Positions 19,820 through 24,636 of a DNA stretch of 64,000 nucleotides are shown piece by piece. The stretch is from Natrinema thermotolerans DSM 11552. Its GTDB lineage: Archaea; Halobacteriota; Halobacteria; Halobacteriales; Natrialbaceae. The notes beneath the pieces were generated by a model that saw only the letters and a program-made list of their open reading frames with translations, did no database searches and was not told where the DNA came from. Numbering within the stretch: position 1 is the stretch's first letter; each line of letters begins with the position of its first letter. Location: contig AOIR01000056.1 of assembly GCA_000337115.1 (NCBI GenBank), forward strand, positions 66,104 through 130,103. Reading direction: 5' to 3'. The position numbers and the translations under genes are program-made.

Positions 19820-20977
19820 TCAGTCGGCGATCGCCTCGCTCGCGTCCGCTTCCACCGCGGCCTCCCTGATCCAGAGGTCGCCGAACAGTTCGTCCTGCTC
19901 GAGCGCGATCCGGCCCCGATGGGCCAGAAAGAGCAGCGCCAGATAGGACATCACGCGCGAGCCACCGGCCGCGTCGATCTCGGCGAACAGCACCTCCTCG
20001 CGCCCGTTCTCGTAGTGGACCTCGAGTTCGCCCTCGACGTCGTCGATGACCGCCTCGATGTCCTCCTCGTGGGTGGTGTGGGTGACGTCGTCGCTGGTCG
20101 GTTCGTCGTCGACCCGGAAATCGTCGCCCGAGCGGTAGTCCAGCTCCTGCATACCGCGGTCGTACCCCGACGGCGAGTCGCTCGTGTCGTAACTGCGCGA
20201 CTCCTTCCACCGGGTGTCCCGTTCGGCAGTCCGCAGTTCCCGAACGAGTTCGTCCAACGTCTCCGGCTTCCCGCGGGCGTGCTTGCGCTCGAGGCGACGC
20301 TCCATCTCCGCCTCGAGGCTCTCGACGGGATCGAATCCCTGCGGGTGGCGCTCCTCGCCCTCGGCGTCCATCGCGGGATCGTCGGCGAACGGTGCCTCCC
20401 ACGGCGGGAGTTCCTCCTCCTCCTCGGGCTCGTCGGTCGCGAACAGTTCGTCGCTTTTCATCCGCAGGAGGACGCTCGCGTAGAACAGCGCCCGGCCCGA
20501 CGTCCGGAGGTCCGCGTCCTCGATCGCCTCGAGGAACTTGTCGGTGACCCGGACGACGTCGATATCCCAGGGATCGATCTCGCCCTCTTCGGCGAGCTGG
20601 ACCAGCAGTTCGACGGGTTCGACCTCCTCGTCGTCTCCGGCCCCCGCGTCCACCTCGTCCTCGGAGAACTCGAGGATGGAGTCGTCGGCTCCGGGTGCGT
20701 GGCTCGCGGCGTTCGTCTCGTCGTCGCCGCTCGAGTCCGCGTCCCCGGGCCGCTCGCGGTCCTCGTGGCCCGTGATATCGAGGGGGATCTCGTCCCCGCC
20801 GTCGGTATAGAACTCGTCGCGGTCCCGTTCCGTCTCCGAGCCGCATGGCGGATCGCTACCTCGCGGGTCACTTCGTTCCCCGCTCACGGATCGCTCCGCT
20901 CCCCGTTCGCTTTTCCGCGGCGCGTCGCGCCGCGCTCCGCTCAGATCATCCGAGTCGCGTGGCGACTCGCTAGTCAC
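19820..20977 (-). CDS. scpA: Segregation and condensation protein A
   Basis: A 385-residue kleisin that bridges the SMC heads in the chromosome-condensation complex. The conserved body begins near residue 60 (EIPLDITGHEDRERPG) and holds the N-terminal helical domain (VELLVQLAEEGEIDPWDIDVV), the charged middle and the C-terminal winged helix (SYLALLFLAHRGRIALEQD). It starts at GTG 20977 and overlaps the smc stop by eight bases, so the two are coupled. Residues 1-60 are an extra low-complexity segment rich in Ser, Arg, Glu and Gly, encoded by palindromic DNA. No scpB follows. Confidence 0.9.
   Translation of the reverse strand: MTSESPRDSDDLSGARRDAPRKSERGAERSVSGERSDPRGSDPPCGSETERDRDEFYTDGGDEIPLDITGHEDRERPGDADSSGDDETNAASHAPGADDSILEFSEDEVDAGAGDDEEVEPVELLVQLAEEGEIDPWDIDVVRVTDKFLEAIEDADLRTSGRALFYASVLLRMKSDELFATDEPEEEEELPPWEAPFADDPAMDAEGEERHPQGFDPVESLEAEMERRLERKHARGKPETLDELVRELRTAERDTRWKESRSYDTSDSPSGYDRGMQELDYRSGDDFRVDDEPTSDDVTHTTHEEDIEAVIDDVEGELEVHYENGREEVLFAEIDAAGGSRVMSYLALLFLAHRGRIALEQDELFGDLWIREAAVEADASEAIAD
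20849..20969. repeat. Palindrome-rich segment encoding the scpA N-terminal extension
   Basis: Within the first 45 codons of scpA are perfect inverted repeats: CGAGTCGC/GCGACTCG at 20951-20958 and 20962-20969 (3-base loop), CGCGGCGCG/CGCGCCGCG at 20916-20924 and 20926-20934 (1-base loop), and GCGGG/CCCGC at 20863-20867 and 20879-20883. CGGATCGCT is also directly repeated at 20849 and 20887. They encode a Ser/Arg/Glu/Gly-rich, disordered peptide. Confidence 0.6.
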
Positions 20978-23900
20978 TCACGGGCACCTCCTCACCACCG
21001 TCGTCGCTATCGCTGAGATCGATCCCGGTCACCGCGCTGACGTTGTCCTGTTGCATCGTCACGCCGATGGCCCGCTCGGAGCGATCGAGCATGGCCGAGC
21101 GGTGCGAGACGACGACGAACTGCGCCTCGCCGGCCAGTTCCTCGACCATCTCACCGACCCGCTCGGCGTTGACCGCGTCGAGGAAGGCGTCGATCTCGTC
21201 GAGCGCGTAGAAGGGGGCGGGGTTGTGTCGCTGGATCGCGAAGATGAACGCGAGTGCGGTCAGGGACTTCTCGCCGCCGGACATCGCGTCCAGTCGCTGG
21301 ATGGGCTTGTCGCCCGGCTGGGCCTTCATCGTCAGTCCGCCGTCGAACGGGTCGTCCTCGTTCTCGAGATGGAGGCTCCCGGTCCCCTCCGAGAGCTGCT
21401 CGAAGATCTCGGTGAAGTGACCGGCGATCGCCTCGTAGGCGTCCATGAACGTCCGTTTCTTCTGGGTTTCGTACTGCTCGATCCGGTCACGGATACCCTC
21501 CGCTTCTTCGACAAGCGTCGCCTTCCCCTCCTCGAGGTCGTCGAGATCGTCCCGGACCTCGTCGTACTCCTCGATCGCGAGCATGTTGACCGGCTCCATC
21601 GCGTCCATGTCGGACTGCAACAACTCGATGGTCTCGAGGACGGTCTCGTGGTCGGGCACGTCCTCGGGGTCGTAGTCGCCGACCGCCGATTCAAGCGACT
21701 CGATTTCCCACTCGAGGCTGTCGGCCCGCTCGCGGGCATCCTCGAGTTTGCTCTCGACGGTGTTGACCCGATCCTGTTGTCGGTCTCGTTTCGTCCGCGC
21801 TTCCGAGAGTTCCTCCTTCAGGTCGCTGCGATCGGCTTTCAGCTCCGTCAGCTCCTCCTCGAGTTCCGCGACGGCCGCGCGTTTCTCCTCGAGACCCTCG
21901 CGCTTGCCCTCGATTTCGGCCTCGTACTCTTCGATTCGCTCCTCGTGGTCTGCCTTGCGGTTCTGGGCCGCCTCGATGTCGTCGTGGCGGTCATCGATCG
22001 CGTCCTCGGCGTACTCCTTCTCGAGGGTGAGTTCGTTGATCTCGCTGTCGATCTCGGTGATGCGGTCCTCGCGCTCGTCGATCTCGGCCTCGAGGGCCTC
22101 GATCCGATCGGTCAGTTCGGGGATCTTCGAGTCCGCGAGTTCGGTTTCGAGATCGTCGATCTCGGCCTCGATCTCTTCGATCGCGGCCGTCTTTTCGTCG
22201 ATCGTCGCCGAGATCTCGTTCATCCGCTCGTCGACCGACTCCCGCTCCTCGCGCAGGTCCGCGAGTTCGGCCTCGAGGTCGTCGATCTCGCTTTCGACCT
22301 GTTCGCGTTTCTCGTCGAGTCCCTCGAGTTCGGCCTCGATCGAGCGCACCTCGTCGGCGGCGTCGGTCTTGCGGTCGCGGGCGTCGTCGAGTCGTTCCTC
22401 GACGCCGCGCAGTTCCTCGCGCAGTTCCTCGCGTTCCTCCTGCAGTTCGGTGATCTGCTTGGCGACGCGCTCGAGTTGGCCCTCGCCGCCGCCGGTAAAG
22501 GAGTACCGGGAGCCGCCGCCGGAGCCGCCGGTCATCGCGCCGCTTTTCTCGACCAAGTCGCCGTCGACGGTGACCATCCGGTAGTCGCCCATATAGGAGC
22601 GGGCGGTCTCGATGTCCTCGACGACCAGCGTGTCCCCGAGGACGTACGAGAAGACGCCGGCGTACTCCTCGTCGAAGTCGACGAGGTTGTACGCGAAGTC
22701 CACGACGCCAGGATCGCTGGGGGCGTTGGGTAGCCGGCGCTGGCTCATATCGGTCAGCGGCAGGAAGGTCGCCCGACCGGCGTTGCGCGATTTGAGGTGT
22801 TCGATACACTGCTGGCCGACCACGTCGTCGTCGACGACCACGTTAGCCAGTCGACCGCCGGCGGCGGTTTCGCAGGCGACGGCGTACTCGCCGGGCACCG
22901 TGCCGAGTTGGGCGACTGCACCGTGGACGCCGTTGATCCCCGAATTGAGGATCGTCGTCACCGCACGGCCAAACGAGGAGTCGCCGCTCTCGCCGGCCTT
23001 TGCCTCGAGTTCGGCGTACTCCTGCTGTTTGGCCTGGATCTCGTCGTCGAGTTCGTCGAGGTCCGACTGGAGTCGGCGTTTCTCGCCTTTCAGATCGTCG
23101 ACGACGGCGGCGATGTTCGACCGGTTCTGCTCGGCCTTCTCGAGTTCCCGCTCTAAGTCGGCCCGCTGGTTCTCGATCTCGGGCAACGTCTCCTGCTTTT
23201 CCGCGATGGTCTCCTCGGTCTCCTCGATGGTGGTCGAGCGCCGCCGGGCCTCGTCGAGCAGGCGGTCCTGCTCGCGCTGAAGGTCGTTCTTCTCGGTCTT
23301 GGCGGCCTCGAGGTCGTCCTTGCGCTCGGCGAGGTCGGCCTTGAGTTCGTCGAACTCGGTGTCGACAGCCTCGATCTCGGCCTCGAGGTCGTCGCGTTCG
23401 GCCTCGCGCTCTTGAATCTCGGTCTTGATCGAGGCTTTCTCCAGCTTGTGTTCGCGGATCTCGTCTTCGAGGTCGTCGATCTGCTCTTGCTTGCGGTCGA
23501 TCTCGACGAAGGCCTCGCGGCGGTCGGCCTCGGCGGCCTCGATCTCGGCCTCGCTGGACTCGATCTTGTCCTCGAGTCGCGAGATCTCGCCTTTGAGTTC
23601 CTCGATCTCGCTTTTGATCCGCAGCTGTTCGTCCTCGCCCTTGCGCTCGATCTCGTCGTTTATGTCCGCGAGGTCCTCCTCGAGCCGGACGACCTTGCCC
23701 TCGCGTTCGTCGAGTTCGCGCTGCAGTTCCCGGAGTTCGTCCTCGCGGTCGTCGATCTCCGCCTCGACCGACTCGAGGTCCGTGCGTTTCTCCTCGAGTT
23801 CGCTGGCTTTCTTGTAGCCCTCGTACTCCTCTTTCTCGCGGCGGAGCCGGCGATACCGCATCGCCTCGCGGCGCTCGTCCGCAAGCTGCTCGAGCCGGTC

Positions 23901-24560
23901 GCGTTTCTCCTCGATGCGGAGTTCGGCTTCGTCGATCCGTTCCTGGACCGTCTCGAGTTCCTCGAAGGCGTCTTCCTTCTTGGCATCGAACTCGGCGACG
24001 CCCGCGATTTCGTCGATGATCTCCCGGCGGGCGTGGGGAGTCATGTTGATGATTTCGGTGACGTCGCCCTGCATGACGACGTTGTACCCCTCAGGGGTAA
24101 TCCCTGCCTGAGCCAACAGGTCCTGGATGTCGGAGAGGTTGACCGAGCGGTCGTTGAGATAGTAGTAGGAGTAGTAGTTGTCCTCGGTCTCTTTGACCCG
24201 GCGACGAATGCGGATCTCGTCGACGTCGCCGACGTCCTCGCTGCCCGCGGCGTTGACGACCTGCGAGCGGGTCAGCGTCCCGTCGGCGTTGTCGAGGACG
24301 ACCTCGACGGTCGCCTCCCGGGAGCCGCCGGCGTCGCCGTCACCGTCCTCGTGACCGGGATTGTAGATGAGGTCGGTCAGCTTCTCCGCGCGGATCCCCC
24401 GCGTTCGGGCCAACCCGAGCGCGAACAATACGGCGTCGATGATATTTGACTTGCCGGAGCCGTTGGGCCCGGTCACGACCGTGAAGTCCTCGTAAAACGG
24501 GATCTTCGTCTTGCGGCCGAAGCTCTTGAAATCGTCGAGAACGATCGACTTGATATACAT
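20970..24560 (-). CDS. smc: Chromosome segregation protein SMC
   Basis: An 1196-residue SMC ATPase. The head has Walker A GPNGSGKS (31-38) and, near the C-terminus, the signature LDAMSGGEKSLTALAF and Walker B FYALDEIDAFLD. Two long heptad-rich coiled coils flank a hinge near residues 515-640 (SFGRAVTTILNSGINGVHG; RATFLPLTDM). It drives chromosome organisation with ScpA, which is coupled at its 3' end. The start at 24560 (MYIKSIVLDDFKSF) is the canonical SMC N-terminus; the nine codons above it in the frame are ignored. Unusually long acidic loops occur in the head (EDGDGDAGG). Confidence 0.96.
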   Translation of the reverse strand: MYIKSIVLDDFKSFGRKTKIPFYEDFTVVTGPNGSGKSNIIDAVLFALGLARTRGIRAEKLTDLIYNPGHEDGDGDAGGSREATVEVVLDNADGTLTRSQVVNAAGSEDVGDVDEIRIRRRVKETEDNYYSYYYLNDRSVNLSDIQDLLAQAGITPEGYNVVMQGDVTEIINMTPHARREIIDEIAGVAEFDAKKEDAFEELETVQERIDEAELRIEEKRDRLEQLADERREAMRYRRLRREKEEYEGYKKASELEEKRTDLESVEAEIDDREDELRELQRELDEREGKVVRLEEDLADINDEIERKGEDEQLRIKSEIEELKGEISRLEDKIESSEAEIEAAEADRREAFVEIDRKQEQIDDLEDEIREHKLEKASIKTEIQEREAERDDLEAEIEAVDTEFDELKADLAERKDDLEAAKTEKNDLQREQDRLLDEARRRSTTIEETEETIAEKQETLPEIENQRADLERELEKAEQNRSNIAAVVDDLKGEKRRLQSDLDELDDEIQAKQQEYAELEAKAGESGDSSFGRAVTTILNSGINGVHGAVAQLGTVPGEYAVACETAAGGRLANVVVDDDVVGQQCIEHLKSRNAGRATFLPLTDMSQRRLPNAPSDPGVVDFAYNLVDFDEEYAGVFSYVLGDTLVVEDIETARSYMGDYRMVTVDGDLVEKSGAMTGGSGGGSRYSFTGGGEGQLERVAKQITELQEEREELREELRGVEERLDDARDRKTDAADEVRSIEAELEGLDEKREQVESEIDDLEAELADLREERESVDERMNEISATIDEKTAAIEEIEAEIDDLETELADSKIPELTDRIEALEAEIDEREDRITEIDSEINELTLEKEYAEDAIDDRHDDIEAAQNRKADHEERIEEYEAEIEGKREGLEEKRAAVAELEEELTELKADRSDLKEELSEARTKRDRQQDRVNTVESKLEDARERADSLEWEIESLESAVGDYDPEDVPDHETVLETIELLQSDMDAMEPVNMLAIEEYDEVRDDLDDLEEGKATLVEEAEGIRDRIEQYETQKKRTFMDAYEAIAGHFTEIFEQLSEGTGSLHLENEDDPFDGGLTMKAQPGDKPIQRLDAMSGGEKSLTALAFIFAIQRHNPAPFYALDEIDAFLDAVNAERVGEMVEELAGEAQFVVVSHRSAMLDRSERAIGVTMQQDNVSAVTGIDLSDSDDGGEEVPVSD

Positions 24561-24636
24561 TCTTGATCCGAGCCCTCCGTCACACACGCGGCCGTCTGCC
24601 GGGTTGTCCGTTCCCCGACCGCGGCCGCCGCTGCAG

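Follow-up and report, generated by a model that had tools for sequence, protein, structure and literature searches.

An in-frame palindromic element at the start of scpA in Natrinema thermotolerans and in other genes of Halobacteria

In Natrinema thermotolerans DSM 11552, the segment that opens the scpA gene very probably consists of clustered copies of a small palindromic element that is non-autonomous, spreads across the genomes of haloarchaea and is translated wherever a gene contains it. Positions given below are those of the window (i.e., the whole stretch of 64,000 nucleotides that was analyzed, from contig AOIR01000056.1).

Hairpin modules fill the start of scpA

Hairpin modules occupy codons 1 to 48 of scpA (20837–20977, minus strand; Table 1). 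The preliminary description is correct on the reading frame, the GTG start and the overlap at the smc stop, all of which match the open reading frames. The last bases of the TAG stop of smc are supplied by the first bases of the element, where element-free relatives have TGA or TAA. The ScpA product matches the Pfam SMC_ScpA family (51.4 bits) over residues 128–189. A conserved body had been placed near residue 60, and this is correct for conservation at the genus level, which begins at about residue 62 (DEIPLDITGHEDRERPG), but not for the Pfam domain, which begins only at residue 128.

The claim that the first ~45 codons consist of near-perfect stem-loops with arms of 8, 9, and 5 bases is confirmed, since modules A1 and A2 have arms forming perfect inverted repeats of 8 nt (20951–20958/20962–20969) and 9 nt (20916–20924/20926–20934), while the main stem is of 5 bp in both B1 and B2, which overlap. 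Simple palindromes are an adequate description of these perfect A repeats but not of the B module, which also has conserved tandem G-A mismatches. In module B2, CGC replaces the sequence that would form TGA, matching the CGC pattern of other copies read in the GERSDPR frame. When the segment's strand was folded as DNA and compared with its own shuffles, its z score was −2.16, with 7 of 200 shuffles equally good, and hairpins cover 46% of it vs. 21% in codon shuffles (p = 0.03). Because this single-sequence fold only moderately beats shuffles, the case for the element rests on comparison, where the evidence is far stronger.

Table 1. Coordinates of the genes and hairpin modules at the smc–scpA junction
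Feature	Position	Strand	Description	Basis
scpA	19820..20977	minus	385 aa, GTG start overlapping smc stop	ORF
smc	20970..24587	minus		ORF; Pfam SMC_N and SMC_hinge
Hairpin module A1	20951..20969	minus	CGAGTCGC(CAC)GCGACTCG	Inverted repeat I3; homologous module in many relatives
Hairpin module A2	20916..20934	minus	CGCGGCGC(GAC)GCGCCGCG	Inverted repeat I1 and comparison of relatives
Hairpin module B1	20882..20910	minus	GCGAACGGGGAGCGGAGCGATCCGTGAGC, reads SERGAERSVS	Covariance model R1, E 2.4e-11 (whole genome)
Hairpin module B2	20859..20887	minus	GTGAGCGGGGAACGAAGTGACCCGCGAGG, GERSDPR frame	Direct repeat D2 and sequence
Decayed hairpin module A3	20837..20855	minus	CGATCCGC(CAT)GCGGCTCG, imperfect	Direct repeat D1 and comparison of relatives

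The element is present or absent at scpA in close relatives

We located the body of ScpA in 60 relatives, which are draft genomes, and read the smc–scpA junction in 30 genomes including the window's own. In 29 of these 30, the scpA start codon precedes the end of the smc stop by 8 bases, and the remaining genome shares the GTGACTAG junction. Eight of the 30 have no element at this site. In these, the N-terminus of scpA is short and plain, the conserved part following ATGACTGAC (or a close variant) directly or within a few codons, and the smc stop is TGA or TAA. Carriers read ACTAG, so that the element finishes the TAG stop of smc, with the exception of one carrier (G032) that has TAA. The stretch ahead of the conserved ScpA body is as short as 12 nt where the element is missing and reaches 333 nt, with the frame kept in all 30 genomes.

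The segment is not shared by all close relatives, as eight congeners have none of it and ~129 bp are missing from the nearest relative found (G026, whose ScpA body is 99% identical). Nor is there support for translation starting downstream at residue ~60, which had been raised as an objection, because scpA keeps its start at the smc stop in every genome, whether or not the element is present. In most scpA carriers, hairpin coverage exceeds that of codon-shuffled controls, and none of 100 codon shuffles reaches the observed value in G006, G022, G008, G009, G014, G010, G025, G027, and G020. On a tree built from the LysRS and ScpA bodies, parsimony requires 9 changes for 13 occurrences at scpA. 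The disordered N-terminus of scpA would be a tolerant spot, where modules are repeatedly gained and lost and lend smc its TAG stop.

The element is also found at the scpA N-terminus beyond the genus (L244, L249, and L287, with scpA-proximal matches in G052 and G055), and probably in other families too, so that it looks like a recurrent hotspot. Some scpA N-termini carry extra module types beside A and B, such as TGCGAGCGGCGAAGCCGCGAGCA and the larger stem GAGGGTTCCGAGGAGCCGGAGGCGACGCAGGAACCCTC, in genomes G010, G014, G020, G025, G027, and G028 (L022, L021, L036, L030, L031, and L037).

Conserved genes show filled and empty sites

The preliminary description proposed a search for arm copies in other genes, and such copies do occur in the window's genome, at sites that are empty in relatives. 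Conserved protein genes of at least 25 kinds contain the element in frame. Hosts confirmed by Pfam, the finer names being our reading of the Pfam domains, include thiolase, LysA, lysyl-tRNA synthetase (LysRS), a ValRS-type synthetase, PurC, PurD, PurH, PurL, aconitase, GcvPB, CobN (at more than one position), riboflavin synthase, Hel308- and Lhr-type helicases, MMPL transporters, P-type ATPases, amidases, hydantoinase, and prolyl oligopeptidase. In Natronorubrum bangense, there is an annotated copy within the thiolase CDS.

Sister species differ in occupancy at the insertion sites. The LysRS insert (54 bp) is present in 4 of the 25 Natrinema read (G018, G010, G028, and G023) and absent in sister species such as G020; parsimony gives 4 changes for 4 occurrences, each of which is a separate change on the tree described above. 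In LysA, an insert of 19 residues is seen in four of the aligned species and a shortened one in a fifth, with another insert in G025 and none in the others (i.e., 6 of 24 genomes scored, with 5 changes for 6 occurrences). Two of four close orthologues of an FrhB-like protein have 18 additional residues, and GpmI has inserts at three distinct positions among species. The alignments show sites that are empty in congeners, which is proof of insertion or loss. The GpmI insert falls in a linker between two stretches aligned to solved structures, and that of LysA falls at the break between two such stretches, which suggests that insert positions are surface loops.

The A+B unit combines two conserved hairpins

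The A+B unit is bipartite, with a hairpin A of ~19 nt (a perfect palindrome of 8–9 bp), a spacer of 5–6 nt and a hairpin B of 29 nt. It is 53–54 nt long, and inserts measure 54 or 57 bp at most sites measured and 48 bp at one. Module B, GCGAACGGGGAGCGAAGCGACCCGTGAGC, forms a stem with two symmetric tandem G-A internal loops and usually a GNA triloop. The hairpin of its innermost GCGAAGC heptamer has been solved as single-stranded DNA (1KR8 and 1PQT, listed in PMC5430850). In genes, the structured strand is the coding strand, since the opposite strand would carry T-C instead of G-A. When folded as RNA, a typical A+B unit adopts exactly the proposed fold with a z score of −3.99 (−2.68 as DNA). 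An Rfam search with the window segment and intergenic copies returned no relevant match.

Paired bases of the unit change together, and the G-A positions are preserved whatever the context. Among 18 variants of B, 96.9% of cells pair and 21 cells are changed on both sides, with a covariation score above all 500 shuffles and every slid version; A, spacer, and B taken together gave a similar outcome. As the variants were picked by eye, we count this covariation as support rather than as an unbiased test. It is rather unlikely, in our view, that stem covariation is a product of mutation (i.e., template switching between arms or quasi-palindrome correction) instead of structural selection. Such a process is expected to yield perfect palindromes like those of A, and the hairpin has no known function; however, the tandem G-A mismatches of B are rarely changed, being 98% identical in copies of frame f0, 93% in f1 (frames defined below), and 95% in intergenic copies. 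Quasi-palindrome correction may nevertheless contribute to hairpin A. Both hairpins are probably also recognized as nucleic-acid structures, which would account for their staying intact inside genes.

The element is widespread in Halobacteria

Copies were counted by model searches and in sampled stretches. The exact 29-mer of B was found in 36 stretches of an 84,980-species genome collection, all from Halobacteria and from several families, and the A+B covariance model has matches in 101 of 119 haloarchaeal genomes, both between and inside genes. A 24-nt core has no exact copy in viral contigs. A covariance model of B finds 22 copies in the window's genome at E below ~0.003 and 0 to 80 copies per relative at E up to 1e-4. 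Of the 23 best B matches in the window's genome, 5 are in genes (ScpA, LysA, the FrhB-like protein, GpmI, and one more) and the others are intergenic. Coding copies served to train covariance model R2, which biases the coding share it gives.

New copies would arise at the DNA level, probably via single-stranded hairpin intermediates or template switching. Insertions would land widely, purifying selection retaining those that are in frame, in the sense direction, stop-free, and in surface loops. Mobility is argued from patchy presence, which allele recombination and precise deletion could also give. The insert borders show only a short GCGAG-like similarity, which makes precise deletion by recombination possible, and deletion of this kind at short direct repeats is described in Haloquadratum (PMC3119063). 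We found no transposase with ends matching the element in the window's genome, and the unit was rejected as a MITE, since it has no terminal inverted repeats matching a resident transposon and no clear target-site duplication.

We think that dispersal in trans by IS200/IS605-type Y1 transposases, as for REP or PATE elements, is improbable. The window's genome does have three Y1 transposases, REPs may supply TAG stops and enter genes (PMC3733652), and the palindromic PATEs of Haloquadratum are related to IS605 ends (PMC3119063). However, the Y1 genes are of the IS605 type, each beside a long TnpB-like open frame, and these three resident elements have neither A nor B hairpins at their ends. Moreover, the aligned units have no evident GTAG or CGTC tag at the foot of the stem, and no dedicated RAYT gene was found in the genome.

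Coding copies keep both the frame and the hairpin

Our census comprises 90 A+B places, i.e., 30 loci from the search with the A+B model and 60 fetched stretches, in which genes were called with a home-made codon model, hand-corrected for three scpA copies and one weak call. In genes, where 67 of these places lie, the unit is read in the sense direction in 67 of 67 cases. A possible antisense coding copy (L288) was scored as intergenic, because the gene call behind it is very weak (score 13). Nearly all coding copies read hairpin A in the same frame, which is the sole overall acidic one of the six (23.7% acidic residues and a mean charge of −0.06 per residue), whereas most antisense frames are open as well, but encode basic and more hydrophobic peptides. 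Where the flanking genes are co-directional, the orientation bias of intergenic copies is only weak (15 sense and 7 antisense), which leaves a pure 3′ UTR or terminator role unsupported. Given this weak bias, selection on the peptide is the best explanation of the strict sense rule inside genes.

The length of the spacer (5 or 6 nt) determines the frame in which B is read, either RTGSEATRE (f1) or GERSDPR (f0), the latter where the usual sequence would read TGA. This TGA is present in 0 of 29 f0 copies, compared to 17 of 36 in f1 and 14 of 23 intergenic ones (Fisher 9e-6 for f0 vs. f1 and f2 together, 5e-7 vs. intergenic). Since copies at orthologous sites are not independent, we also counted by distinct gene site, with sites grouped by hand, and found 0 of 18 vs. 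6 of 14 (p = 0.003). In f0, the partner of the changed base is also changed, giving 25 G-C pairs, 3 C-G pairs, and 1 mismatch, while the pair is mostly A-T elsewhere. The GpmI copy has an inner stem shorter by one base pair (2 nt), which retains the hairpin and moves the frame past the stop. Because f0 copies avoid TGA and the paired base co-changes, we infer that the unit is translated and its hairpin conserved. The element is probably tolerated in proteins as a hydrophilic linker, and a peptide such as SEARSASDSRTGSEATRET would be flexible and suited to a halophilic protein.

These observations make it very improbable that the element is spliced from the mRNA or bypassed by the ribosome, like an intron or the bypassing elements of yeast mitochondria, and is thus absent from the protein. 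Stable RNA hairpins of conserved shape within essential genes would be in keeping with such a scheme, but the inserts are in frame (mostly 54 or 57 bp), the stop is avoided exactly in the frame where the usual sequence has it, and the GpmI copy passes it through the loss of 2 nt with its hairpin kept. We therefore rejected membership of either class, the frame being kept and the stop avoided. It is scarcely credible that the N-terminus of scpA is merely a fast-evolving, low-complexity disordered region with palindromes from GC-rich codon usage, for although it is rich in Ser, Arg, Glu, and Gly and its single-sequence fold is of modest significance, units of 29 and 53 nt with covarying stems recur in unrelated genes and intergenically, unit-free relatives have a short plain N-terminus, and homologous copies with empty sites refute this reading.

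A bolder proposal, which we advance tentatively as possible rather than probable, is that of a dual-code element. A haloarchaeal host factor would recognize its tandem G-A hairpin, whether in RNA or in single-stranded DNA, and selection would keep this hairpin within dozens of housekeeping genes. Frame and hairpin would then co-evolve base by base, and the element would drive the insertion of acidic linkers across the class Halobacteria.

Comparison with known palindromic repeats

The likeness to Rickettsia palindromic elements (RPE) that had been drawn for the scpA segment is borne out in behavior, since the element lies in frame in numerous unrelated protein genes whose counterparts in relatives have the site empty. 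Like RPEs and the palindromic repeats of Wolbachia, the A+B unit is a short palindrome that occurs in frame in unrelated housekeeping genes and also intergenically, has a patchy distribution and encodes tolerated peptides. However, RPEs are ~100–150 bp long, or about 150 bp with in-frame fusion according to PMC10969869, whereas the A+B unit has 53–57 bp, two separate hairpins and conserved tandem G-A loops. Its range is Halobacteria, where alone the exact B core is found, and the likeness that we describe is one of behavior. We did not file the element as an RPE because it is too short for the RPE definition and any shared ancestry is conjectural.

Coding palindromes are cited for Rickettsia, Wolbachia, and Methanocaldococcus jannaschii in PMC2996958, which is our source for the last of these. 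The M. jannaschii repeats are archaeal, palindromic, and in frame like the unit, but belong to a different class of Archaea, and the likeness is drawn from their description. PARCEL repeats are also palindromic, protein-coding, and mobile, but form tandem arrays of amphipathic repeats and are stated in PMC2996958 to be absent from the archaeal genomes then available. REP elements (with GTAG/CGTC tags and RAYT) resemble the unit as palindromes of 20–40 bp with many copies, some of them genic, whose termini may give the preceding gene its TAG stop; they are mostly extragenic (PMC3733652), whereas the highest-scoring sampled A+B copies are mostly in genes. The PATE and SMR of Haloquadratum walsbyi are, like the unit, short mobile repeats of haloarchaea with palindromes or inverted ends and no transposase of their own, and make no target duplication. 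They differ in having IS605-type near-terminal palindromes or terminal inverted repeats, and the available pages of their description note no in-frame coding family with the hairpin of the unit (PMC3119063).

The preliminary description regarded such elements in haloarchaeal genes as little described. Searches of a literature that was mainly open-access turned up no previous description of coding palindromes from haloarchaea, but archaeal coding palindromes as such are not wholly new, in view of the M. jannaschii repeats (cited in PMC2996958). In-frame coding palindromes are common across a large free-living archaeal group, beyond a few intracellular bacteria and one methanogen. One short DNA is here bound by two rules, the hairpin being kept and the protein readable, and this offers a natural test of one repeat under two constraints, in which the stop-forming base changes and its partner changes too. 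The element also accounts for unaligned inserts in many haloarchaeal enzymes and could offer naturally tolerated linker sites in genetically tractable hosts.

Variation in copy number and arrangement

Within one genus, the copy number of B varies widely, with 80 copies in G018, 53 in G007, and none in G024 at the same threshold. Intergenic copies in G073 (L321–L328, at about locus position 310–540) are embedded in a longer conserved composite repeat (AAATCGGCTGGGGAGAG ... GGCGTGGCCACTCCCCGTGTCCACGATAGCAG), which recurs at several sites, is nearly identical there over more than 100 bp, and has interchangeable hairpins. Hairpin units are also arrayed in tandem, two to four at a time, with a period of 57 bp in L335 and L336 (G018) and of 63 bp in L337 (G068).
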